Position numbers and translations under genes: made by a program
In this document: piece by piece, positions 3,401 to 27,572 of the stretch
Numbering within the stretch: the first letter of the stretch is position 1
How the letters are laid out: each line of letters begins with the position of its first letter
From: an uncultured Lachnospiraceae bacterium
Lineage (GTDB): Bacteria > Bacillota > Clostridia > Lachnospirales > Lachnospiraceae
DNA length: 64,000 nt
Direction: 5' to 3'
NCBI GenBank assembly: GCA_946631295.1
Contig: CAMOZY010000001.1
Span: 1-64,000 of the forward strand
Notes under the pieces: generated by a model
Database searches by the model: none
Told to the model about the DNA's origin: nothing
What the model saw: only the letters and a program-made list of their open reading frames with translations

Positions 3401-3428
3401 AAAAGGTCCCGAATGGGACTTTTTTTTG
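3401..3428 (+). terminator. Intrinsic terminator of tRNA-Leu
   Basis: GTCCC (3406-3410), loop GAAT, GGGAC (3415-3419), then eight or more T. It separates the tRNA from the diguanylate cyclase gene. Confidence 0.85.
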
Positions 3429-3445
3429 TTATAATCATGTGGAAT

Positions 3446-4456
3446 ATGGAAAGAAAAAAAGTTGAAAAGTTAACATTTATAGTAAACACCCTGATCCTTA
3501 TCACAGTATTCGGACTCATGGGTTTCTTTTACATGATAGATGTACCATTCCTGGTATATTTCAGCATTCCCACGGTATGCATATACCTGATCGGATACAT
3601 TCTAATATCCACAAGACATCTGGACATCTATGTATGGATGGTATATATATGGCTGACTCTCTATATGGGCATCACTACTGTATGTCTGGGATATGATTTC
3701 GGATTCCATCTTTACTGCATGTCGATGATCCCCGTCATGTTCGTTTCGGAATATCTTTCCTACAAACTCGGTGACAGAAGCCTCAAGGCACTCCCCGTAT
3801 GTATCGCAGTCTGCCTTGTATATCTCATATGCACAGGATACACTTCATATAACGGTCCTGTATATGATGTCGATAAGACAGCGGCAGGAGTTTTCTGGAA
3901 TCTCAATTCCATCATCGTATTCGGATTCCTGATCTATTACACCAACTGGATGATAAAACTTGTCATCAATTCAGAAAACAAGCTTAAAGAGATGGCACAG
4001 GTCGATAATCTGACCAAGCTTTATAACCGTCATTACATGAAAGAGATACTGAATGCAAGTGAAAGTGGTGACGGCAGATATCTTGCGATTGCAGACATAG
4101 ACCACTTCAAGAACATCAACGATACCTACGGGCATAACGCAGGTGATCTGGTTTTAAAAAAGCTCGCTCTTATCCTTAAGGAAAATTTTAAAGGTGCGGA
4201 TATATGCAGATGGGGCGGAGAAGAATTCCTGATCCTCGAATCCGGAAATATCGAATCCGGAAAAAAACATTTCGAAGCCTTCAGAGACGCACTGAAAAAT
4301 ACTGATTTTATCTATGAAGACCAAAAGATCACGGTTACTATCACTGCGGGATTATCTGTCAGAGAGCCCGGACATTCAGTGGATAAATGGGTACAGAGTG
4401 CAGATAATAAGCTTTACTACGGCAAAGAACACGGGCGTGATCAGATTGTCATTTAG
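3446..4456 (+). CDS. Membrane-bound diguanylate cyclase (GGDEF)
   Basis: About 336 residues. The first ~175 form about six hydrophobic helices without a large extracytoplasmic domain (resembling 6-TM sensor modules), followed by a short helix and a GGDEF domain. The signature is RWGGEEF, an active GGEEF variant, and the domain opens with DNLTKLYNRHY. The inhibitory site is degenerate (KGAD instead of RxxD). It should make c-di-GMP from two GTP. The start is uncertain: in-frame ATGs lie at 3413 (inside the tRNA terminator), 3437 and 3446, and none has a good Shine-Dalgarno. A perfect TATAAT at 3430-3435 would start transcription only a few bases before the 3446 ATG. The stop overlaps the convergent channel gene by 8 bases. 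Confidence 0.87.
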   Translation: MERKKVEKLTFIVNTLILITVFGLMGFFYMIDVPFLVYFSIPTVCIYLIGYILISTRHLDIYVWMVYIWLTLYMGITTVCLGYDFGFHLYCMSMIPVMFVSEYLSYKLGDRSLKALPVCIAVCLVYLICTGYTSYNGPVYDVDKTAAGVFWNLNSIIVFGFLIYYTNWMIKLVINSENKLKEMAQVDNLTKLYNRHYMKEILNASESGDGRYLAIADIDHFKNINDTYGHNAGDLVLKKLALILKENFKGADICRWGGEEFLILESGNIESGKKHFEAFRDALKNTDFIYEDQKITVTITAGLSVREPGHSVDKWVQSADNKLYYGKEHGRDQIVI

Positions 4457-5915
4457 AAGATTTTCCTATCATATCATCCATGTTCTTTTCATCCTCATCT
4501 ATCAGCTTTTCTATCTCTCTGCGTGTTACACTGCCATAAACTCCGTCTTTTTCTTTTTCGGAAAGAGGCAGATCATCAAATGGAACGAGAAGATTGTGCT
4601 TTCTGCTTTCGTTATCTCTTTCAGGTGCGTAAGTCCAATGGTTGATATAATGGTATCTGCTCCATCTTATATGTTCAATCTGCCAGAATTCCTCTTCCGA
4701 AATATTTCCCTCATCACGGATCCTCATCTCAATCCAGTAATGATCTCCTCTTGCCATGCTGGAAGCTTTCTTGAATCCGGGCAGTGCATTCCATTCCTTC
4801 GCAATTTCAGCCTCATCATAACTGTCTTCAGGCTTATTTCCGTATCTTAGACTATAATCGTAGTTAAACAGTTTTCCGAGTTTATAAAGCCTTTCTTCCT
4901 TGATGTCTTCCTCGGTAAGATATTCGTCAAGATCTCCGAAATATGTCAGATTGTCTCCGACATAGAATCCTCCCCATTTACGCCCTTCCTCGTTAAAATA
5001 GAATATTTCCGCATCCTGGTTACGGTACATTACCTCCTGTGAAATCTGCATGGAATGTTCTTCTTCTGTGATGATCACACGATCAGATTTTGATATTTCA
5101 TCCAGATCATCCTGCCATCTCTTGGAATGCACCACCACCACATCATGGTTCATGGTATTGAGTGAAGCCAGAAAGGCAGCATCCGAATCATTGCATCCCC
5201 AGATGTGATATACAATTTTCTGGTCAAGAGAAAAAATATTATTGAGGTATCCGTATCTGAAGATTGCTCTGCCGATATTCTCATATCCGATTATGGAAAC
5301 AGAATAATCCTTCTTTTCCCTGACTTTATAAAGATGGAATTTCCTCCAGTATTTTCTTGCCATTACCTCGTATATATTAATGATCCTGACACCTTTACGA
5401 TTTATGGCATTCAGAAGAAAAGGATCCATATCCCTTACAAGCAGGCATATTATGCTGTCACCGAATGAATCCCTTCTCTCCTCATAAAACTGAAGAGTCT
5501 TGGTGTCGTCATTCATGAAAATGAGATGATATCTGGCTCTCTCCGCTTTTTTTCTTCCATCCGTGCGGGCATAGAATCCATGCTTCAGCTTGGCTTCGAG
5601 CTTTGCACCATATTCATTGTCGGTATATACGGCAGTCGAATCGTTGAAAAAATACATTAAGATCCTGTCTATGGTCTTGTAGACAGAAGTAAGAAAACTC
5701 AGGACGACGCCTGCTGCGACGAGCAGCGCAGTAAGTTTGGCAAGTGTTATCCAGACATTGCTCACCTCAGTTGTAGGATTAACGAAATAGAGAGCACATG
5801 TCGCATACAGTGCCTCAAAAAAGGGAAGCCCCTCCACGGAATAATATCCTATCATTCCCAAAAGGAGCGGAACCCATGCAAAACGCATTATTATCCGGCC
5901 AATCTTGTCTTCCAT
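4449..5915 (-). CDS. 2-TM channel-like protein with RCK-like and C-terminal RyR domains
   Basis: 488 residues. The N-terminus (1-90) has two membrane helices flanking a pore-loop-like stretch (ALYATCALYFVNPTTEV) at the place of a potassium-channel filter, but without TVGYGD. Next comes an RCK/TrkA_N-like Rossmann region (about 120-285, with SIIGYENIGRAIFRYG). The last ~90 residues match the RyR fold: HIRWSRYHYINHWTYAP at about 415, then KHNLLVPFDDLPLSEKEKD. RyR modules are known from ryanodine receptors and, in bacteria, are attached to TrkA-like proteins, where a ligand-sensing role is suspected; the ligand is unknown. The start at 5915 has GGGAG seven bases upstream. It is divergent from a second channel-like gene. 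Function inferred: ligand-gated ion channel. Confidence 0.72.
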   Translation of the reverse strand: MEDKIGRIIMRFAWVPLLLGMIGYYSVEGLPFFEALYATCALYFVNPTTEVSNVWITLAKLTALLVAAGVVLSFLTSVYKTIDRILMYFFNDSTAVYTDNEYGAKLEAKLKHGFYARTDGRKKAERARYHLIFMNDDTKTLQFYEERRDSFGDSIICLLVRDMDPFLLNAINRKGVRIINIYEVMARKYWRKFHLYKVREKKDYSVSIIGYENIGRAIFRYGYLNNIFSLDQKIVYHIWGCNDSDAAFLASLNTMNHDVVVVHSKRWQDDLDEISKSDRVIITEEEHSMQISQEVMYRNQDAEIFYFNEEGRKWGGFYVGDNLTYFGDLDEYLTEEDIKEERLYKLGKLFNYDYSLRYGNKPEDSYDEAEIAKEWNALPGFKKASSMARGDHYWIEMRIRDEGNISEEEFWQIEHIRWSRYHYINHWTYAPERDNESRKHNLLVPFDDLPLSEKEKDGVYGSVTRREIEKLIDEDEKNMDDMIGKSSK

Positions 5916-5961
5916 ATCTCTCCCGTACAGCAGTCATATGAACGGACTGCACTTTGATGAT

Positions 5962-6007
5962 TTGATAACTGCACACCATAATAATATATTAATCCGCTGT
6001 TGTCCAA
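5962..6007. promoter_or_regulatory. Divergent promoters of the channel locus
   Basis: On plus, TTGATA (5962-5967), 17 bases and TATATT (5985-5990) would drive the RCK channel operon. On minus, TTGGAC (complement of 6002-6007), 18 bases and TATTAT (complement of 5978-5983) would drive the RyR channel gene. The two -10 regions overlap, so the two units may be expressed in a mutually linked way. Confidence 0.5.
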
Positions 6008-6075
6008 ATTCATGATGCCTCTTATTCACTCAAAATATGGAAAAACAGTGAAAAATGCAGTAAAATTATAAATGT

Positions 6076-7260
6076 ATGGGCAAAAATGAAAATGACAATA
6101 AAACAAGGGATAAAAGAAAGCTGTCCGCAAGACTGAAAGACTTTCTTCAGCGATCTCATTTACTGACATCTGCGCTGATCATCATTTTAGTCTTTGTCGT
6201 CTGTTACGCCTGCTACATTTACTCTGACGCAAGGGAAAATGGTCTGAGCTTTCTTGATGTCATCATCTACAATCTCCTCGCTCTTGCCGGCAATGATTAC
6301 GAATTCACGGAAACTCCGGCAGGCAGGATACTCGGTCTGATCGTACTCTCGCTCGGTGTTGTGGCTCTGTCCACCATAACCGGTTACATCTCATCAGCAC
6401 TCGTTGCAAGAAAGCTCAATGTCGAAAGAGGTATTAAGAAAATGCAGAATATGAAAGAGCACATAATCATCTGCGGATTCAAGAATGATATAAAATCCCT
6501 CATCACCGGAATCCTCCGGAAAAATAAGAATCTTTCAGTTTCAGACATCATCCTTATCACTGCAGCCGAAGATGTCAAACTGCAGAACCTCAGAGACGAT
6601 GACGGGTTAAAGGGGCTTCTGATACTCAAGGGTGATTTCACTGAAGAGCAGACTCTTAAGAACGCGAACATATCCAAGGCAGCCAAGGTCCTCATCATAG
6701 GTGAAAACAGCGAAGGGCTCGACGATGAACTTATAGATTCAAGAGTGTTCGTCACAGCCCTCATGGCAAGGAACCTTAATTCAAAATGTCATATCTGCGC
6801 ACAGATCCGTACCGAAAGATACCGTAATTATCTTGAAGCCCAGGGATGTGCTGAAGTCATCTATACTGATGAATATACAAGATACATCCTCACCACCTCG
6901 ACCAATTACAGCGGTATGAGCAAGGTCATGAGTTCATTCCTCGATAACGGTGATGGCATCTCGGTTCAGCTGGAACCCGTTTCAGAAGAATGGATCGGCA
7001 AAAAATACAGTGATCTGTTTGACTGGTATAAGAAAGAGAAAAACATCCTGCTTCTTGGAATTCTTGAGAATATGGGTGTTGAAAAAGAGATCAAACACAG
7101 CATACTTTCGGAAGCCCAGAAATCAACCAATTACGGTGAGATCATACAGAAGCTGAAAACCGTCAAGGATATGGAAACAAATGAGCCCCGCCTGAACCCC
7201 GGTGACGATTACGTCATCCCTTCCAATTCCGGAGCCATTATACTTGGGGAGGAACGCTGA
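6076..7260 (+). CDS. 2-TM channel-like protein with RCK (TrkA_N) domain
   Basis: 394 residues. A basic N-terminus leads to TM1 (31-50), a pore-loop-like segment (LLALAGNDYEFTETPAG, 67-83), TM2 (84-111), and a cytosolic RCK domain from about 128 (KEHIIICGF), with a second lobe at about 290-394 ending in a TrkA_C-like GDDYVIPSNSGAIIL. The layout is that of a Kch/MthK-type or Castor-type channel, but the selectivity filter is not TVGYGD, so ion selectivity cannot be assigned. No Shine-Dalgarno is visible before the ATG. It overlaps the cyclic-nucleotide-binding gene by one base (TGATG), which implies translational coupling. Confidence 0.75.
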   Translation: MGKNENDNKTRDKRKLSARLKDFLQRSHLLTSALIIILVFVVCYACYIYSDARENGLSFLDVIIYNLLALAGNDYEFTETPAGRILGLIVLSLGVVALSTITGYISSALVARKLNVERGIKKMQNMKEHIIICGFKNDIKSLITGILRKNKNLSVSDIILITAAEDVKLQNLRDDDGLKGLLILKGDFTEEQTLKNANISKAAKVLIIGENSEGLDDELIDSRVFVTALMARNLNSKCHICAQIRTERYRNYLEAQGCAEVIYTDEYTRYILTTSTNYSGMSKVMSSFLDNGDGISVQLEPVSEEWIGKKYSDLFDWYKKEKNILLLGILENMGVEKEIKHSILSEAQKSTNYGEIIQKLKTVKDMETNEPRLNPGDDYVIPSNSGAIILGEER

Positions 7261-7742
7261 TGGATTATATCAAAAAATTAAAAGCTTTCCCTCTTTTTGA
7301 AAAGATCTCCGACGAAGATCTGAAAAGCTTCGCAGCGCTGCTTAGTCCCATGACATCTGCTGCAGGTTCGGACATAATCACAGAGGGTGAGACAGGATCT
7401 GATATGTATTTTCTCATTGAAGGATCAGTCGACATTATCAAGACCACCGTTTTTGGAGACAAGTTTGTCTGTGCATCTCTGACAAGTGACATGGGATGCG
7501 TATTCGGTGAGATGGCACTTATCGACAGCGACAAAAGATCCGCAACAGTCAGAGCCAAAACCGACTGCACCTCTCTTTATATCTCACGTGCTGACTTCAA
7601 TTCCTTTGCGGATTCACATCCCGCTGCAGGCGTATCACTCCTGAGGTTCATCGGAGTCAATCTTGTAAGAAACATCCGCAAGGAAAACGAAAATCTCAAC
7701 CTGGTCTATCAGGCACTTATAGAAGAAATAGAATCCAATTAG
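7260..7742 (+). CDS. Stand-alone cyclic-nucleotide-binding domain protein
   Basis: 160 residues made of one Crp-type cNMP-binding beta-roll plus a helical tail (about 125-160). The phosphate-binding cassette is recognisable: FGEMALIDSDKRSATV at 82-97, with Glu84 for the ribose and Arg93 for the cyclic phosphate. Early glycines (EGETGSDMYFLIEG, 42-55) fit the roll. There is no DNA-binding HTH, so it is unlikely to be a transcription factor. It is probably a regulatory subunit acting in trans on the channel or on the downstream enzyme. It is joined to the channel gene by a one-base overlap and followed after 15 bases by the lipase/ATP-grasp fusion. Confidence 0.85.
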   Translation: MDYIKKLKAFPLFEKISDEDLKSFAALLSPMTSAAGSDIITEGETGSDMYFLIEGSVDIIKTTVFGDKFVCASLTSDMGCVFGEMALIDSDKRSATVRAKTDCTSLYISRADFNSFADSHPAAGVSLLRFIGVNLVRNIRKENENLNLVYQALIEEIESN

Positions 7743-7757
7743 TACCGGAGGCTGTAA

Positions 7758-10238
7758 ATGTACAGAACTGACGAACTGCTGCTCATTGAACATCTTACAT
7801 ATATGTCCGATAAGGCACCTATCATCTCCATCCTTGATGCAGAAGGAATGAAAGTAGGTGAATATCTGGATAAGATCGATATTGATGCGCTTGATGACGA
7901 ATACGTCTATTCGACTCAGATGAACGGAGCAGATTTCCGTAATGTCATCCTTGCCATGAAAAAGAATCCGTCAATCGCAAATGCCGAGATTGCATGTTCG
8001 CATCTGGACAATGCATACGGTGCAGGCGGAGGAATTTCCATCGTCCTTATAAGTGATGAAAGTGTAACGGATGAAGAAGGCAGACGTGAAGCAGTAGTTG
8101 CATATCGCGGAACTGCAGAAAATGAATGGACAGACGACTTCGAGGGAGCAAATCAGATAGATTCACTCCAGCAGATCAATGCACTCGAATGGTACAAGCA
8201 GGCATACGATTTTCTTAGTCTCGATCAGTATTACGTGACAGTAATAGGACATTCAAAGGGTGGTAACAAGGCAAAATATGTCACCATCTTAAACGATACT
8301 CCTGACCGCTGTGTTTCCTTTGACGGACAGGGATTTTCCGATAAATTCATCGAATATTACAAGCGTCGCATCATTGAAAGACAGTCTGTGATCGAGAATC
8401 ACAATATCGATTTCGACTATGTCAACATACTGATGAACGATATAGGAAACAAGACCTACTACATCGGTTATGACTATGGCAAAGCCGGTTTTTCCGAAGC
8501 ACATGCACCCAACACATTCTTCGATTTCACCGCGCCCGGAGAATACCAGATGCGCATCAATCCTAACGGTCAGCGCCCGGAGATGCAGATACTGGATCAG
8601 TTCATAAACAGCATGATCCGTTCTGCTGTAAGTGATAATGAAAGCAGTGAGACAAATTATCTTGTGGGATTCCTGGTAGAAAGAGCTTTTGCACTTTCAA
8701 ACGGAAGCAGCACCAATGATTTTATAAGCTTCATGTGTGATATGATCGGCGATCCCAAATACACCGACAACGTTGCTTACCTTCTTGCATATACGATCCT
8801 CTATACCAGGAAGAATCCCGACTTTCTTGATGCGATCAGAGGAATTATGACCGCCTTTCACTCCGAGGAGATCCTTAAGATCATAAATATGGTCGACGGA
8901 CTTGTTAATTCCAGAAAACTGAATGCGATACTAGGCGTTTCCGATTTCCTTGTAGGGCATGTCAACCGCCCGATCGCCAAGACCGCTCAAGGATTCATAA
9001 AGAAAAACTACGATATCGATATACCGGCAGAACAGATAGGAAGCATTCTCCAGATCGTTACTCTTACAAAAGATATGATGGAAACACTTACTCTGAATAT
9101 GAATGGTTCCGATATGACTCCTGATGATGTACCGCTTACAGATGAAGAGCTGCGTGAATTTGTTCTTCCGGGCAACCTTAACATAGTTGTTCTGGCAGGA
9201 GGACTTTCCAATGAACGTAATCTTTCCCTTAAAACAGGCGTCACTGTTGCGGATGTTCTGAGAGGAAGAGGAAACAATGTAATCCTTCTTGACGCATTTA
9301 TGGGATACGGTGAAAAGGAAGAGCTTCTTCCGGATGTTTTCAGCGATGCTAAGAAGTATTCCCTCGCGCCTAAGGATATACCGGATGAGATACCAGATCT
9401 GTGGGCAACAAGAAAACGCCGCAAAGATCAGTCAGGTGCGTATTTTGGTCCCAATGTTCTTCAGATATGCAGACAATCCGATCTGATCTTCATCGCTCTT
9501 CACGGAGCAAACGGAGAAAACGGAAAAGTACAGGCTGCGTTTGATCTGCTCGGACTCGATTATACCGGATGTGATTATTTTTCATCGGCAATCTCATCCA
9601 ACAAAGCTGCTGCAAAGCAGCTTATGCGAACAGCCGGAGTTCCTGTTCCAGACGGATATCTCATCAAGGATATATCAGACATTCCTGATCCGGAGCAGAT
9701 GGGCCTCAGCTACCCCATCATCGTAAAACCCAACAACGGTGGTATTGGTCTTGGAGTTTCAATTGCTTCAGATATCACTGCATATCAGAAGGCTGTTAAA
9801 AATGCATTCCGCTGGGATTCTGAGATACTTGTCGAGGATTATTTTGCAGGAAGGGAATTCGCAGTATGTACCATGGAGGGCAAGGCACTTCCCGTTATAG
9901 AAAAACTTCCTTTCGAGACAAGTGATAAGGAAATGGGACTTAACATGCGTGGAGAAACCGCTATCAAGTGTCCCGCAGACATTCCTGACGAACTCACCAA
10001 AGCACTCCAGAAGGCAGCAGAAGATGCAGCTTATGCTCTCGGTGTAGGTGCTTATGCCAAGATGGACTTCATGGTCGCGCAGGATAATGAATCCTTCGTC
10101 TGCCTCGAATGCGACTCTCTCCCCCAGCTATACCCCGATTCGCATCTTGTTCTGTCAGCCAAGGCATCAGGAAGAAGCTTCGGAGACCTGTGCGACAAGA
10201 TCATGGAGATGTGCCTTGTCAGGAAGGTGAATTCATAA
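7758..10238 (+). CDS. Mbeg1-type lipase fused to D-Ala-D-Ala-ligase-like ATP-grasp enzyme
   Basis: 826 residues. Residues 1-290 form an alpha/beta hydrolase of the Mbeg1 (DUF2974) type, with AYRGTAENEW and the nucleophile elbow GHSKGG (Ser166). A helical linker (290-470) follows. Residues 473-826 match D-alanine-D-alanine ligases: VLAGGLSNERNLSL, LHGANGENGKVQ (581-592), the ATP-grasp lysine strand IIVKPNNGGIGLGVS (654-668), and AYAKMDF with CLECDSLPQ (782-790). Compared with E. coli DdlB, the substrate-phosphate Arg255 is Lys768 and the metal ligand Asn272 is Asp786, so the ligated substrate may not be D-Ala. RBS CGGAGG lies 8 bases before ATG. The gene is co-transcribed with the channel and the cNMP protein. 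Confidence 0.82.
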   Translation: MYRTDELLLIEHLTYMSDKAPIISILDAEGMKVGEYLDKIDIDALDDEYVYSTQMNGADFRNVILAMKKNPSIANAEIACSHLDNAYGAGGGISIVLISDESVTDEEGRREAVVAYRGTAENEWTDDFEGANQIDSLQQINALEWYKQAYDFLSLDQYYVTVIGHSKGGNKAKYVTILNDTPDRCVSFDGQGFSDKFIEYYKRRIIERQSVIENHNIDFDYVNILMNDIGNKTYYIGYDYGKAGFSEAHAPNTFFDFTAPGEYQMRINPNGQRPEMQILDQFINSMIRSAVSDNESSETNYLVGFLVERAFALSNGSSTNDFISFMCDMIGDPKYTDNVAYLLAYTILYTRKNPDFLDAIRGIMTAFHSEEILKIINMVDGLVNSRKLNAILGVSDFLVGHVNRPIAKTAQGFIKKNYDIDIPAEQIGSILQIVTLTKDMMETLTLNMNGSDMTPDDVPLTDEELREFVLPGNLNIVVLAGGLSNERNLSLKTGVTVADVLRGRGNNVILLDAFMGYGEKEELLPDVFSDAKKYSLAPKDIPDEIPDLWATRKRRKDQSGAYFGPNVLQICRQSDLIFIALHGANGENGKVQAAFDLLGLDYTGCDYFSSAISSNKAAAKQLMRTAGVPVPDGYLIKDISDIPDPEQMGLSYPIIVKPNNGGIGLGVSIASDITAYQKAVKNAFRWDSEILVEDYFAGREFAVCTMEGKALPVIEKLPFETSDKEMGLNMRGETAIKCPADIPDELTKALQKAAEDAAYALGVGAYAKMDFMVAQDNESFVCLECDSLPQLYPDSHLVLSAKASGRSFGDLCDKIMEMCLVRKVNS

Positions 10239-10279
10239 TATAGGTCAGAATAAAAATGTTTCTCTAAACCGAATTACAC

Positions 10280-10319
10280 AAAAAGCTCTTCTGCCATACA
10301 TTTGACAGAAGAGCTTTTT
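10280..10319. terminator. Bidirectional terminator between the channel operon and the coiled-coil gene
   Basis: AAAAAGCTCTTCTG pairs with CAGAAGAGCTTTTT across a 12-base loop. A and T runs on both sides make it work for both converging transcripts. Confidence 0.88.
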
Positions 10320-10339
10320 CGTTTTTCTCCGGTTTGTTT

Positions 10340-11479
10340 TCAAATCTGTATATTGAATGAGGAAGTAAAACTCTCAGGTCCTGATACAGATAATCCCCGG
10401 TCAATTGAACCCGCCTGATATTCCACGCCTGCAGTTATACCTGCAGAAACAAATGCAGCAAATCCCGCTGATGACCCATACGGCACTCCTGTCATAACCC
10501 CTGCTTTCATCTGCTGATGCCTGAACGTGTCCTTCAGATAATCCATCTCAGCCTTTATAAGCGCCTTATTCTCGGAATTTCTGTGTTTTTTCTTAAGTTC
10601 CTCGAATTCCTCTTTGGTCATATGAGGGTCTACAACCTCGAGTTCTTCAAAGGCTTCCATGGTTTCTTCGAGCTTTTCGAGTTCTTTTTCGCCAAGGGCA
10701 GAGACCATCTCATTCATCTCTGCAATCTCTTCCTCAGTCAGTTCCTTCTGTCTTTCCTCAGCCTCTTCAACCATCTCTTTCATGGTCGCTTCACGCTCTT
10801 CAAAGATCTCATCTTCTGCCTTTTCTGTCTTTTCCTCCGCAGCAGCAATATAAGCACTCTTTATATCCTGCCTCGCCTCTTCAAGCTTGTCAGCCCTTTC
10901 ATCGGCCTTCTGAGTTCTTGCCACCATCTCTTCAAGTTCAAGATGATGCTTCTTCCTCTGTGCGACCATCTCCATACGTCTTGCATGGGTGAGCTGATAC
11001 TGCATCTCCTCGGGATCACCGTTACCGGATGCCATCTTTCGTCTTATTTCCAGGACTTTTCTTTTTGCGGCAAGAACGGCCTGACCGGCGCTTTCCGAGG
11101 TCTTGGCACGCTGAATCTTATTTGCAACTTCCTTGTAATTATATGTGTCAGCTTCAGGGAGCATATCCTCTTCTTCAGACTTTTCTGTACCATCCGTAAC
11201 AAGCAAGCCGTTCTTTTTATTTTCCGAAACGGCCTGATATGCATTCCTTGCAGATTCCCGGTGCATCTCCCTAAGAAGTTCCCTGACCTGTGCAGACTTG
11301 CTCTTTCTACTGTCCTCGAACACCTCTTCTCCACGGTAATATCCGGTCAGAGACGCACCTGTATTTTTTCCGGACACGTATTGGAAAGTAAGGCCTGAGT
11401 GTTCCGAACGCTCCGCAGCAGTTCCGGGCATATTCTGATACAGCATATATGGATTTGTAGAATTAAAGGATACATTCAT
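10340..11479 (-). CDS. Coiled-coil protein of the DUF6033 operon, motility-linked
   Basis: About 379 residues of unknown function. The start (MNVSFNSTN) is chosen at 11479, where GGAGGT lies 7 bases upstream; the frame extends five codons further. Residues about 120-330 are a long, highly charged Glu/Lys-rich coiled coil. The C-terminus (about 330-379) is small and Gly/Ala/Ser-rich (GVPYGSSAGFAAFVSAG), with no signal peptide. It follows the DUF6033-like gene by 25 bases and shares its sigma-D-like promoter, so a role in or alongside the flagellar export or filament apparatus is plausible but not shown. Confidence 0.7.
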   Translation of the reverse strand: MNVSFNSTNPYMLYQNMPGTAAERSEHSGLTFQYVSGKNTGASLTGYYRGEEVFEDSRKSKSAQVRELLREMHRESARNAYQAVSENKKNGLLVTDGTEKSEEEDMLPEADTYNYKEVANKIQRAKTSESAGQAVLAAKRKVLEIRRKMASGNGDPEEMQYQLTHARRMEMVAQRKKHHLELEEMVARTQKADERADKLEEARQDIKSAYIAAAEEKTEKAEDEIFEEREATMKEMVEEAEERQKELTEEEIAEMNEMVSALGEKELEKLEETMEAFEELEVVDPHMTKEEFEELKKKHRNSENKALIKAEMDYLKDTFRHQQMKAGVMTGVPYGSSAGFAAFVSAGITAGVEYQAGSIDRGLSVSGPESFTSSFNIQI

Positions 11480-12702: not shown

Positions 12703-14304
12703 TTATCTGCTGAACTTCGACACGAAATTCCATGCATTTTCGATGGAATGGTGTCTGCATTCATGCTGCTGGCCGCTTACACTTGCAAATGCGGTCCTGC
12801 ATACTCCGTCCTCACTGTCATAGTAATTGACAGTCAGATAGGAATCACGTTCTTCGTTATAATACTTCTCGGTCCTGTCTCCGGGAACGCCCCAGAACTT
12901 ATCTTCCCACTTATCCTTCTCATCAAACTTAAGTGCCTCTATCTGATCGGCCTTCTTCAGTTTGTTGACACGTGCAAGATACTTGAACCTGTCGAGGCAG
13001 GAATCAGCCTGACTGGGAAGTTCGGGAAGAGGTGATGCCTCTCCGCCTGAGTAGAAAAGAGGAACAGGCGTGTCCTGATTAACCCCGTTAAGAGGATGGC
13101 TGAACATATTGTCCTTGACGGGGAAAAGAGCGCTGCAGGGGCACAGACCTGCAAAATACTCCGGATATTCCTGGAACATATCCTGAGTTTTGCCGCTTCC
13201 CATCGAAAAACCGCCTATATATATACGCTTTTCATCGATGCTGTACTTTGTTTTAAGATGCTCAATAACATCAATGATCTCTGTAGGGGTAATGTTCAGA
13301 TGATCATCGAGTGCAACATACAGGATGTCATGATCATGTGCAACTTCCCAGAATCCGGAAACATATGTCAGGTACATGGAAGAATCTCCGCCACCATGGC
13401 ATCCGACAAGCAGAGGTGCAGGTCCCTTATCAAAGATACCGTTGTTATAATATGCAAAATATCCGACAGTATGCTCGCTCTGATCCTTATATTTTCCGAA
13501 GTTATTAGAAGATGTCTTAACAACAACGCTTCCGGGTTCAGCGGTCATATTCAGTTCTTCATATATGGGCTCATTCTGAAGAACTCCGCACCACATCTTG
13601 AATCTTCTGACAAAGGAATAAAAATCATCCTTATAATCCGCACTGTCCTTGATAAGAACATGCTCACAGCCTTCAAAGGCCTTATTGATCTCAGCGGAAT
13701 TGCCTACGCTGAGTACTGCAATATCCTTTCTCTGAATATCCGGTGTAACGGAAAGTCTTTCCATGGAACATACGGCAGGAGTGATCTCGCCGGGGCCCCA
13801 GAGGAATACACCCTGCTGAGTCTTCAGAAGATTTTTGGCCACATAATCAGCTGACTCGCCATAGCTGTAAATATCCGCTCTGAACTTTGCACCTCTGATA
13901 AAATAACCCTTGAATTCACGTGCGAAGAAATCATGCCACTCATCAAGACCGTCACTGTAATCGGTGTCCATCCTGACTTCAGCGATAACATCCGCATACA
14001 GACTCTCCGGCGCTTCCTTCCATCCGCCTTCATTTGTCGGATAGATGAAAAGTACACTTGCGTCAAATGATGCCGCAATCTCTTCAAGTCCTGTCTTTTT
14101 CGCGAAATCTATCGCTGCATCTTTGTCATGCTTTGTCTCTTCGAAAACAAGAAGAAGCGGTGCCTTGAATCCGTAATTGTTCACCTGACCGTTAAGATCA
14201 TTTGCAGGAACATACGTCTTCACAAAAAAGCTTTCAAATTCGTGCTCCCAATACTTGGAGCCGTCACCAAGAGTGGTAACTTCAGGTCTTTCCTTCATTG
14301 CCAT
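12703..14304 (-). CDS. Alpha/beta hydrolase, esterase/PHB-depolymerase-like
   Basis: 533 residues. The C-terminal half is an alpha/beta hydrolase: oxyanion-side CHGGGDSSMY, nucleophile elbow GGFSMGSGKT, and a late His-rich stretch (SGQQHECRHHS) that may hold the catalytic His. This resembles PHB-depolymerase-like and carbohydrate esterases. The N-terminal ~270 residues have another conserved-looking alpha/beta part of unknown role. There is no signal peptide, so it acts in the cytosol, for instance deacylating imported oligosaccharides. Start at 14304 with GGGGGA seven bases upstream. It is divergent from the GH27 alpha-galactosidase, which supports a role in galactoside-rich glycan use. Confidence 0.7.
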   Translation of the reverse strand: MAMKERPEVTTLGDGSKYWEHEFESFFVKTYVPANDLNGQVNNYGFKAPLLLVFEETKHDKDAAIDFAKKTGLEEIAASFDASVLFIYPTNEGGWKEAPESLYADVIAEVRMDTDYSDGLDEWHDFFAREFKGYFIRGAKFRADIYSYGESADYVAKNLLKTQQGVFLWGPGEITPAVCSMERLSVTPDIQRKDIAVLSVGNSAEINKAFEGCEHVLIKDSADYKDDFYSFVRRFKMWCGVLQNEPIYEELNMTAEPGSVVVKTSSNNFGKYKDQSEHTVGYFAYYNNGIFDKGPAPLLVGCHGGGDSSMYLTYVSGFWEVAHDHDILYVALDDHLNITPTEIIDVIEHLKTKYSIDEKRIYIGGFSMGSGKTQDMFQEYPEYFAGLCPCSALFPVKDNMFSHPLNGVNQDTPVPLFYSGGEASPLPELPSQADSCLDRFKYLARVNKLKKADQIEALKFDEKDKWEDKFWGVPGDRTEKYYNEERDSYLTVNYYDSEDGVCRTAFASVSGQQHECRHHSIENAWNFVSKFSR

Positions 14305-27472: not shown

Positions 27473-27572
27473 CTCTTATTGTTCGAAACATTTCGCTCAG
27501 GTGGGCACCTTCCTTAAAGGGGTTGCCGTGGCTTCACCGGTCCTATGTACCTCTGCCAACTCTGAATAAGAG
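27473..27572 (-). ncRNA. SAM-I (S-box) riboswitch
   Basis: P1 pairs CTCTTATT (5' end, 27572 side) with AATAAGAG (27473-27480). Inside are the S-box core GGTGAAGCCACGGCAACC, then GGTGCC and a GAGCGAAA-type turn in the P4 region. The 302-base gap between murA and metK holds this aptamer, its terminator, and a possible promoter (TTGACA, complement of 27618-27623; TACGTT 17 bases on). Confidence 0.96.

Follow-up and report, generated by a model that had tools for sequence, protein, structure and literature searches.

The window, a 64,000-nucleotide stretch of a contig from an uncultured Lachnospiraceae bacterium, carries four genes arranged around a divergent intergenic stretch of 160 bp (5916..6075). 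P0001, a channel-like protein of 488 aa with two transmembrane segments (2-TM) and an RyR domain, is encoded on the minus strand (4449-5915; open reading frame (ORF), Pfam and alignment). The plus strand encodes P0002, a 2-TM RCK channel-like protein of 394 aa (6076-7260; Pfam, MthK profile and Foldseek), P0003, a stand-alone cyclic-nucleotide-binding protein of 160 aa (7260-7742; Pfam cNMP_binding), and P0004, an 826-aa fusion of an Mbeg1-like hydrolase with a Ddl-derived ATP-grasp (7758-10238; Pfam and Ddl-site comparison). The four gene calls and coordinates given in a preliminary description of this DNA agree with the ORF list, and Pfam finds RyR, RCK, cNMP_binding, Mbeg1-like and Dala_Dala_lig on the genes to which these domains had been assigned. 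The tight coupling described for the three plus-strand genes is likewise borne out: the ORFs of P0002 and P0003 have one base in common, and 15 bases separate P0003 from P0004. Promoter-like matches occur on both strands of the intergenic stretch; the 12 in the region scanned around it are within the range of shuffled sequence (9.4, sd 2.9) and therefore weak.

RyR was the sole Pfam match of P0001 (1.2e-6, 29.1 bits against a curated cut-off of 27.4), and no RCK or pore model of Pfam fired. The domain occupies approximately residues 413-457, and in the PDB solved RyR chains were matched, at best with 1.6e-13. The predicted structure, built from a 3-sequence alignment, reached a mean pLDDT of 46. 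At the position where K+ channels have TVGYGD, P0001 reads ALYFVNPTTEV and thus contains no TVGYG filter, while four members of the 22-row family alignment have TVGYGD there. One further relative, a single protein, combines Ion_trans_2 (2.7e-13) with RyR (1.5e-8). Judged from sequence, P0001 belongs to a family of 2-TM/Rossmann/RyR channels, and its branch has lost the K+ filter that some relatives kept.

For P0002, Pfam returned Slo-like_RCK (2.2e-13) and TrkA_N (3.3e-9), with Ion_trans_2 at only 0.31; a profile match to MthK extended from the pore through the RCK domain (2.9e-4). P0002 thus has the 2-TM pore and RCK domain of an RCK channel, the pore being recognized by profile only. Foldseek searches with the P0002 model (mean pLDDT 60.9, with a poorly modelled membrane region) retrieved Slo1, MthK and GsuK at E 3e-12 to 2e-9 over ~380 columns, with poor superposition (TM-scores 0.26-0.32, rmsd ~20-24). 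The filter reads LAGNDY rather than TVGYGD, and GND was found in 14/14 sequences; seven distant relatives retain TTVGYGD. At the level of sequence, the predicted anatomy of both channel-like proteins stands. P0003 matched Pfam cNMP_binding at 5.1e-18. Its phosphate-binding cassette, FGEMALIDSDKRSATV, contains E84 and R93, which we take to be the Glu and Arg characteristic of CNB phosphate-binding cassettes; both are present in 15/15.

P0004 consists of an Mbeg1-like alpha/beta hydrolase (residues ~1-460) and the Ddl-derived ATP-grasp (~473-826), as indicated by Pfam matches to Mbeg1-like (PF11187; 1.3e-7, 31.8 bits against a cut-off of 21.1), Dala_Dala_lig_N (2.8e-18) and Dala_Dala_lig_C (3.2e-24). 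In the hydrolase, G164, S166 (in GHSKGG), G168 and H249 are invariant in 20 aligned sequences. The fused Ddl half presents a different picture at its two sites. Equivalents of the ATP/Mg residues K144, E180, E187, D257 and E270 were kept in 14/14 fusions, whereas those of S150, Y216, R255, N272, G276 and L282 were replaced in 14/14, N272 by Asp throughout. S150, Y216 and R255, presumably the residues of the D-Ala site (the nucleotide and Mg roles are assumed likewise), became I, N/S/T and K, respectively, in 14/14. By comparison, 19/19 stand-alone Ddl and 2/2 other Ddl proteins have the original Ddl-site residues, and P0004 scores below the cut-offs of the NCBIfam Ddl models. Because the fused half has lost the residues that Ddl enzymes use for D-alanine, a product resembling D-Ala-D-Ala, as had been expected from its family, should not be assumed. 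The idea that the fused half is the only Ddl of the cell was also rejected, as another Ddl-type gene is present in all 15 genomes that carry the RCK-cNMP-fusion cassette. Some stand-alone Ddl genes are similar to the fused half; of their 19 solo loci, three were scanned for neighbors (L035, L041 and L044), and in 3/3 the adjoining gene encodes a Mur ligase.

Rather than an enzyme with a new substrate, the fused half might be a dead enzyme that senses ATP or a peptidoglycan precursor and thereby controls the hydrolase. The disappearance of the amino-acid-site residues alongside retention of the nucleotide residues and 2/3 Mg residues in 14/14 sequences, together with strong purifying selection, is compatible with such a sensor, but the conserved replacements NNGGIG and ECDSLPQLY may just as well indicate a new substrate; we regard the sensor as possible, though not as the favored reading. 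We prefer a re-tooled Ddl, and the scheme proposed for the cassette below builds on it.

From the observed gene content, conservation, linkage and residue changes, we infer the physiological steps, ligands, ions and triggers of two separate schemes, one for the RyR protein (unit 1) and one for the cassette (unit 2). The scheme for the RyR protein draws on RyDEP, a phage counter-defence RyR (PF02026) protein without a channel that binds cADPR signals, according to a preprint (PMC13232231). The cADPR-contact residues H, W, H and D of RyDEP correspond to H415, W418, H440 and D457 of P0001 with the same spacing (3/25/42), and their equivalents are present in 22, 21, 22 and 19 of the 22 family alignment rows. 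Equivalents of the catalytic residues H75 and D117 of RyDEP are kept; the channel may therefore also degrade the signal it senses and thereby reset.

Beyond the window, a TIR gene lies directly adjacent to the RyR gene in 11/43 RyR loci, on the same strand in 10 of these 11, and within two genes in 14/43. These 43 loci include 7 with more distant RyR proteins and two each from G347 and G496; L208 was left out because it has no RyR ORF. At control places, TIR genes were adjacent in 0/42 distinct cases (p 4.7e-4 against 11/43), a comparison that is partly circular, since 9/12 seeds of the TIR profile were taken from RyR loci. The TIRs of L198, L200, L203, L226 and L228 were detected though they are not profile seeds. 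For the 14 loci where a TIR lies at most two genes away, Pfam TIR_2 was examined in all except L198 and exceeded its cut-off in each of these 13. Against ThsB_TIR, the partners at L211 and L200 scored well over the cut-off, that at L203 just over and that at L098 just under. In G980, a genome of the same genus, the gene of the closest P0001 relative outside the trio in which RyR gene and cassette adjoin (the window, L106 and L119) has 4 bases in common with a TIR gene of ThsB type (ThsB_TIR 7.7e-9), and L226, from outside the class, contains an RyR-TIR-RyR tandem. In the trio itself no TIR gene adjoins the RyR gene; four TIR genes are located elsewhere in the window genome.

TIR adjacency was also compared by filter. 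TIR genes are adjacent in 9/20 filter-lost RyR loci versus 1/16 K+-filter loci when L206, which reads TSVGYGD, is counted among the latter; sorting by the string TVGYG alone, with L206 as filter-lost, gives 9/21 versus 1/15 (p 0.024). Both counts supersede an earlier contrast (8/18 versus 0/14, p 0.004), for which a narrower TIR profile had missed one TIR.

Another reading of the RyR protein is that of a common ion-homeostasis channel responding to a housekeeping adenine metabolite, with TIR neighbors recruited later in a subset. The 29/43 RyR loci with no TIR within two genes (a few on short contigs, e.g., L091 and L196), the single adjacent TIR among the 16 K+-filter loci and the binding of adenine ligands by animal RyR Repeat12 all agree with this view. 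It sits poorly, however, with the adjacent TIRs in nearly half of the filter-lost loci, the window gene's own group, and with the nearest relative in that group, whose gene shares 4 bases with a TIR gene, and we consider it unlikely.

Instead, we infer that P0001 is a Thoeris-like, TIR-signal-gated channel that is an orphan in the window. As a 2-TM channel, presumably tetrameric, it would have a cytosolic part ending in the RyR domain. A trigger, for example a phage, would activate a TIR protein, which would make an ADP-ribose-type signal from NAD+; binding of this signal to the RyR domain would open the channel and depolarize the cell or make it leak, i.e., the Thoeris scheme, except that the effector would be an ion channel. 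P0001 could draw on TIR proteins whose genes lie at other places in the genome. More generally, we put forward, tentatively but as a serious possibility, a bacterial TIR-RyR immune pathway in which a TIR-made cADPR-type signal directly opens a channel with an RyR Repeat12-like domain; it would be a bacterial counterpart of animal cADPR-RyR signaling, in which one channel branch kept the K+ filter and another lost it and became a killing effector. The direct action of cADPR on ryanodine receptors is an old question. If the pathway exists, a small TIR-coupled bacterial channel would make that action testable with two purified proteins, and an ion-channel effector would be added to TIR-based immunity. 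The RyDEP preprint likewise leaves direct cADPR-RyR action open (PMC13232231).

The cassette of RCK, cNMP and fusion genes was found at 15 distinct loci, all in Lachnospiraceae; according to record titles, several carriers come from the rumen, and the record of a cultivable relative, strain AC2028 (L108), also contains the cassette. Across 12 genomes, distances between cassettes track those of the housekeeping Ddl (Mantel r 0.94; L106 is represented by a 298-residue piece of its housekeeping Ddl, L119 is excluded because its RCK is broken, and the genomes of L107 and L111 are excluded because no housekeeping Ddl of that type was available from them), and inheritance looks largely vertical. Within the genus, the cassette was missed in 16/31 genomes, many of them incomplete. 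A mobile or phage origin was rejected: no confirmed relatives of the RyR channel, the fusion or RCK were found in viral contigs and no RCK relatives in plasmids, and RyR gave just one weak phage and one weak plasmid match. The cassette ORFs include no PycC or other pyrimidine cyclase gene and nothing that makes a cyclic nucleotide. A class III cyclase is, however, present in 14/15 cassette genomes versus 48/250 of the family sample, counts that are not corrected for kinship; that of the window genome is of the CHASE2 type. The exception, G574, gave no cyclase match, and G073, of the same genus as G292, has cyclases and lacks the cassette.

We propose that a class III cyclase encoded elsewhere would most likely respond to an envelope or osmotic cue by making cAMP or cGMP, and that the cNMP protein would relay this nucleotide to the RCK channel and the fusion. 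Ions would then move through the RCK channel with its non-K+ filter, while the fusion, hydrolase plus re-tooled Ddl, would act on a lipid or cell-wall precursor. The cassette could alternatively be a Pycsar-like anti-phage system whose hydrolase and channel act on the membrane, since P0003 matches profiles of Pycsar effectors (PycTIR 3.1e-17); on the cyclase PycC it has just a weak match (0.0016). The residues matched by the effector profile, 22-143, are nevertheless the CNB domain alone, and the missing operon cyclase, the apparently vertical inheritance with flanks stable in one clade, the lack of any TIR match in the 17 cassette loci scanned and the lack of confirmed relatives in viral contigs make this quite improbable. 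The cassette is an unusual combination, namely a Ddl repurposed and fused to a hydrolase, beside a cyclic-nucleotide sensor and a channel with a replaced K+ filter.

All four genes had been described as a single candidate system. The RyR gene adjoins the cassette in 3/19 cassette loci, namely the window, L106 and L119, which are near relatives forming one small clade of the genus; in the other 16, six of them from the same genus, it does not. G980 has its RyR gene and cassette on different contigs, with a hydrolase gene upstream of RCK, and across the genus RCK occurs in 15/31 genomes, RyR in 6/31 and both in 4. The expected co-occurrence beyond close relatives therefore fails for the set of four and holds for the three-gene cassette, within Lachnospiraceae. 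Flanking genes on both sides are conserved in the same three species, so co-location there is expected from synteny alone. Synonymous sites between window and L106 are near saturation (pS 0.67-0.72), and the persistence of the RyR gene beside the cassette in the three species leaves room for some functional link there. One divergent system in which the enzyme product gates both channels would fit the close gene spacing and this persistence but is contradicted by the linkage data, the shared flanks and the TIR-overlapping, separately located RyR gene of G980, and we hold it to be highly improbable. Taken with the functions proposed, we consider it probable that the locus comprises two independent units head to head. 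Its initial reading as ligand-gated channels in stress or defence appears right to us.

The four-gene set was thought to be unlike any named pathway, and our literature search, which included no cassette-specific query, found no published match. Prokaryotic RyR domains may have come up in comparative-genomic work on nucleotide-based conflict systems. Beyond the RyDEP preprint, a search that mostly excluded subscription journals found no paper linking an RyR domain with bacteria, an ion channel and TIR, and the available parts of PMC7016017 and PMC8195603 contain nothing on bacterial RyR/TIR channels.

As in Thoeris, relatives of the RyR protein pair a TIR gene with an effector whose domain is related to cADPR-binding proteins. 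Published Thoeris effectors are of the SIR2-SLOG and macro-TM types; by Pfam and PADLOC, P0001 is neither, and four RyR proteins scanned alongside gave no PADLOC match at 1e-3. Unlike those types, the effector here would be a 2-TM Rossmann/RyR channel, and no TIR lies beside the window gene. With animal ryanodine receptors, channel-like P0001 shares a Repeat12-type RyR domain, to which the sequence match is confined; the animal receptors differ from it in size and pore. With RyDEP, P0001 shares the RyR (PF02026) domain, including the same four ligand residues at identical spacing, but it is a host membrane protein rather than a phage counter-defence protein. In contrast to Pycsar, the P0002-P0004 operon has no PycC. 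The ATP-grasp half of P0004 has the fold and ATP site of D-alanine--D-alanine ligase, whereas its substrate-site residues are replaced in 14/14. In P0002, as in MthK, GsuK and Slo, an RCK domain follows the 2-TM pore; the P0002 filter has GND in place of TVGYG. CASTOR/POLLUX/DMI1, for which no direct sequence match was found, are RCK channels without TVGYG and with Gly-Asn in the filter (PMC6697748); they have four predicted TM segments and a larger soluble part, and offer an analogy only.

ORF calling placed all four genes where the preliminary description had them, and Pfam supported its domain assignments: RyR for P0001 (4449-5915, minus strand), RCK for P0002 (6076-7260, plus strand), CNB for P0003 (7260-7742, plus strand), and Mbeg1 plus both Ddl halves for the fusion P0004 (7758-10238, plus strand). 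The idea that the four genes form one system was not borne out. Scanning the named genome collection from a pattern seed, with an RCK alignment of three rows, yielded 14 RCK loci (15 distinct loci with the window); named records carrying this RCK-cNMP-fusion cassette are Lachnospiraceae. The order RCK, cNMP, then fusion was found in 14/14 scanned loci, with a 230-residue gene inserted ahead of the fusion in eight (L109-L116); in L111 a contig end cuts the fusion. In L119 (10001-11099, genome G966) the RCK gene is in two pieces, possibly through a sequencing error, and the cNMP and fusion genes are intact. Adjacency of the RyR gene to the cassette is confined to the window, L106 and L119, and four further genus members (L212, L215, L216 and L217) carry the cassette without an adjoining RyR gene; in total it lies beside 3 of the 19 cassettes read, upstream sequence being short in a few (L117, L212). 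Among 31 genomes of the genus, RCK occurs in 15, RyR in 6 and both in 4, counted at different E limits and including RCK fragments in G963 and G966. G980, which holds the closest RyR relative outside these three loci (55% identity), has its cassette on a separate short contig behind an alpha/beta hydrolase gene, and its RyR gene overlaps by 4 bases a gene for a 1038-residue TIR protein (TIR_2, 6.9e-11; ThsB_TIR, 7.7e-9). Because of this 3/19 linkage and the different contigs in G980, the RyR gene is a unit separate from the cassette.

Other features of the window were also recorded. A membrane GGDEF gene (3413-4456, plus strand), whose 3' end overlaps that of the RyR gene, is preserved alongside RyR in the same three species, and a 533-residue alpha/beta hydrolase (12703-14304, minus strand) is retained where the locus has its RyR gene. 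A SAM riboswitch (RF00162, 71.4 bits) lies at 27473-27572 on the minus strand.

The cassette genes are under purifying selection (pN 0.04-0.11 vs pS 0.67-0.71 for RCK, cNMP and fusion, window to L106). Cassette inheritance looks mainly vertical, because RCK distances track those of housekeeping Ddl (12 genomes; Mantel r 0.94, p 1e-4) and one clade shows stable flanks. In the window's genus the flanks vary between subgroups, and no RCK was found in 16/31 genomes, many of them incomplete. In the family sample (299 genomes), RCK was found in no genomes but G000 and G402, apart from one weak match; in the order sample (295 genomes), G000 and G292 alone had a complete fusion. Downstream of the cassette in L109, L110, L112, L114, L115 and L116, loci of one clade, lie a conserved VWA-type protein, an XRE-M78 regulator and a Schlafen-type helicase-like ATPase, with a further AAA protein in most of them (domains assigned on the L110 copy).

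A profile match of P0002 to MthK spans pore and RCK domain, and its model matches MthK, Slo and GsuK with low TM-scores. The RCK filter reads GND in 14/14; seven distant RCK relatives from other families have TTVGYGD. Non-K+ conductance by P0002 is plausible, since the plant RCK channel CASTOR, bearing AD(S/A)GNHA, is Ca2+-selective (PMC6697748). The Glu and Arg of the CNB phosphate-binding cassette are present in 15/15. A class III cyclase occurs in 14/15 cassette genomes vs 48/250 genomes of the family sample, a count that takes in G000 and G402; the contrast of 14/15 vs 46/248 gives a Fisher p of 3.5e-9, a statistic that ignores kinship. The window genome (2.54 Mb, 95 contigs, ~91% complete) has a CHASE2-type cyclase, the one cyclase scanned for CHASE2.

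Other fusions aside, the closest relatives of the fusion's second half are stand-alone Ddl proteins (19 used, 39-46% identical), whose genes are followed by a Mur ligase in 3/3 loci checked. Our alignment comprised 14 full-length fusions (excluding the truncated L111), the 19 stand-alone proteins, two further Ddl and E. coli DdlB. The fusions retain H63, K144, E180, E187, D257 and E270, and all 14 carry replacements at S150 (I), Y216 (N/S/T), R255 (K), N272 (D), G276 (Q) and L282 (H/Q), as do 13 at K215; the 21 other Ddl retain every residue replaced in the fusions. We take S150, Y216 and R255 to be D-Ala-site residues. Given the residues kept and those replaced at S150, Y216, R255, N272, G276 and L282, the second half is best read as a re-tooled Ddl, or a sensor. 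In the hydrolase half, the GHSKGG serine and a histidine are kept in 20/20 aligned sequences. The 230-residue protein had no Pfam match in a scan of its L033 copy (same contig as L113). In four other loci its relatives directly precede stand-alone Mbeg1 genes, so this protein and Mbeg1 look like an older two-gene pair; in L122-L125 a P0012-like protein lies directly upstream of an Mbeg1-like hydrolase, on stretches from which the cassette genes are absent. A tentative reading of the cassette, given low confidence beside its alternatives, is that cyclic nucleotides control an ion flux to which a lipid or cell-wall enzyme is coupled during envelope stress.

RyR-protein matches occurred in 37/299 genomes of the family sample (cut-off 1e-4). 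An alignment of 22 members separated four proteins with a textbook TVGYGD filter between two TM helices from a second group, the others, including P0001, in which the filter is lost. Outside this alignment, the TVGYGD member L200 combines Ion_trans_2 (2.7e-13) and RyR (1.5e-8) in a single protein, and the more distant L228 combines TrkA_N (4.2e-15) and RyR (6.1e-16). The TVGYGD members and these domain matches support reading P0001 as a predicted pore plus Rossmann protein, which Pfam alone did not give. H415, W418, H440 and D457 of P0001, with equivalents in 22, 21, 22 and 19 of the 22 members, match in kind and in spacing (3, 25 and 42) the ligand residues of RyDEP, a phage RyR-domain protein that binds cADPR signals (preprint PMC13232231). 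In L100, a second ORF with a weak P0001 match (9370-11031, 19.8 bits) lies immediately upstream of that locus's RyR channel gene.

We then considered 43 RyR loci: 38 from all 36 other family genomes (one without a RyR ORF, left out of the 43), three more from the genus and another three from the phylum sample. A TIR gene was the direct neighbour in 11/43 and lay within two genes in 14/43; direct neighbours were found for 9/20 full-length filter-lost, 1/16 K+ filter (counting L206) and 1/7 more distant RyR proteins. Applied to control loci (20 Ddl, 17 cassette and 11 Mbeg1/other), the TIR profile used for these counts detected none; the controls amount to 42 distinct places after removal of duplicates and the three RyR-bearing cassette loci. 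The comparison (11/43 vs 0/42, Fisher p 4.7e-4) is partly circular, as 9/12 TIR-profile seeds came from RyR loci. Both genes lie on one strand in ten of the 11 direct pairs, and the spacing across all eleven ranges from -4 to 140 bases. The partners include TIR-MORN, TIR-TPR, TIR-LRR and TIR-ATPase-TPR proteins, others having propeller-like matches below cut-off, and L087 is a TIR-STAND-RyR operon. The sole full-length member found outside the family (G1107, a distant phylum member of another class; 239 phylum-sample genomes) sits in a RyR-TIR-RyR tandem (L226, 5811-11065), made up of a RyR channel, a TIR and an AAA/RyR protein.

Elsewhere, the window genome encodes four TIR proteins; two share 39-45% identity with RyR-adjacent TIR-TPR proteins, and one matches the G980 partner at 37% identity over 371 residues. 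Our guess is that one of the four serves the orphan RyR channel. We consider it somewhat probable that the RyR protein is a TIR-signal-gated channel, in which a TIR-made signal would open the pore. None of the RyR proteins scanned matched PADLOC at 1e-3, and we found no paper in the open-access literature joining bacterial RyR channels with TIR, an absence that is weak evidence. If it is a TIR-coupled effector, the RyR channel would be a new version of an already known kind.
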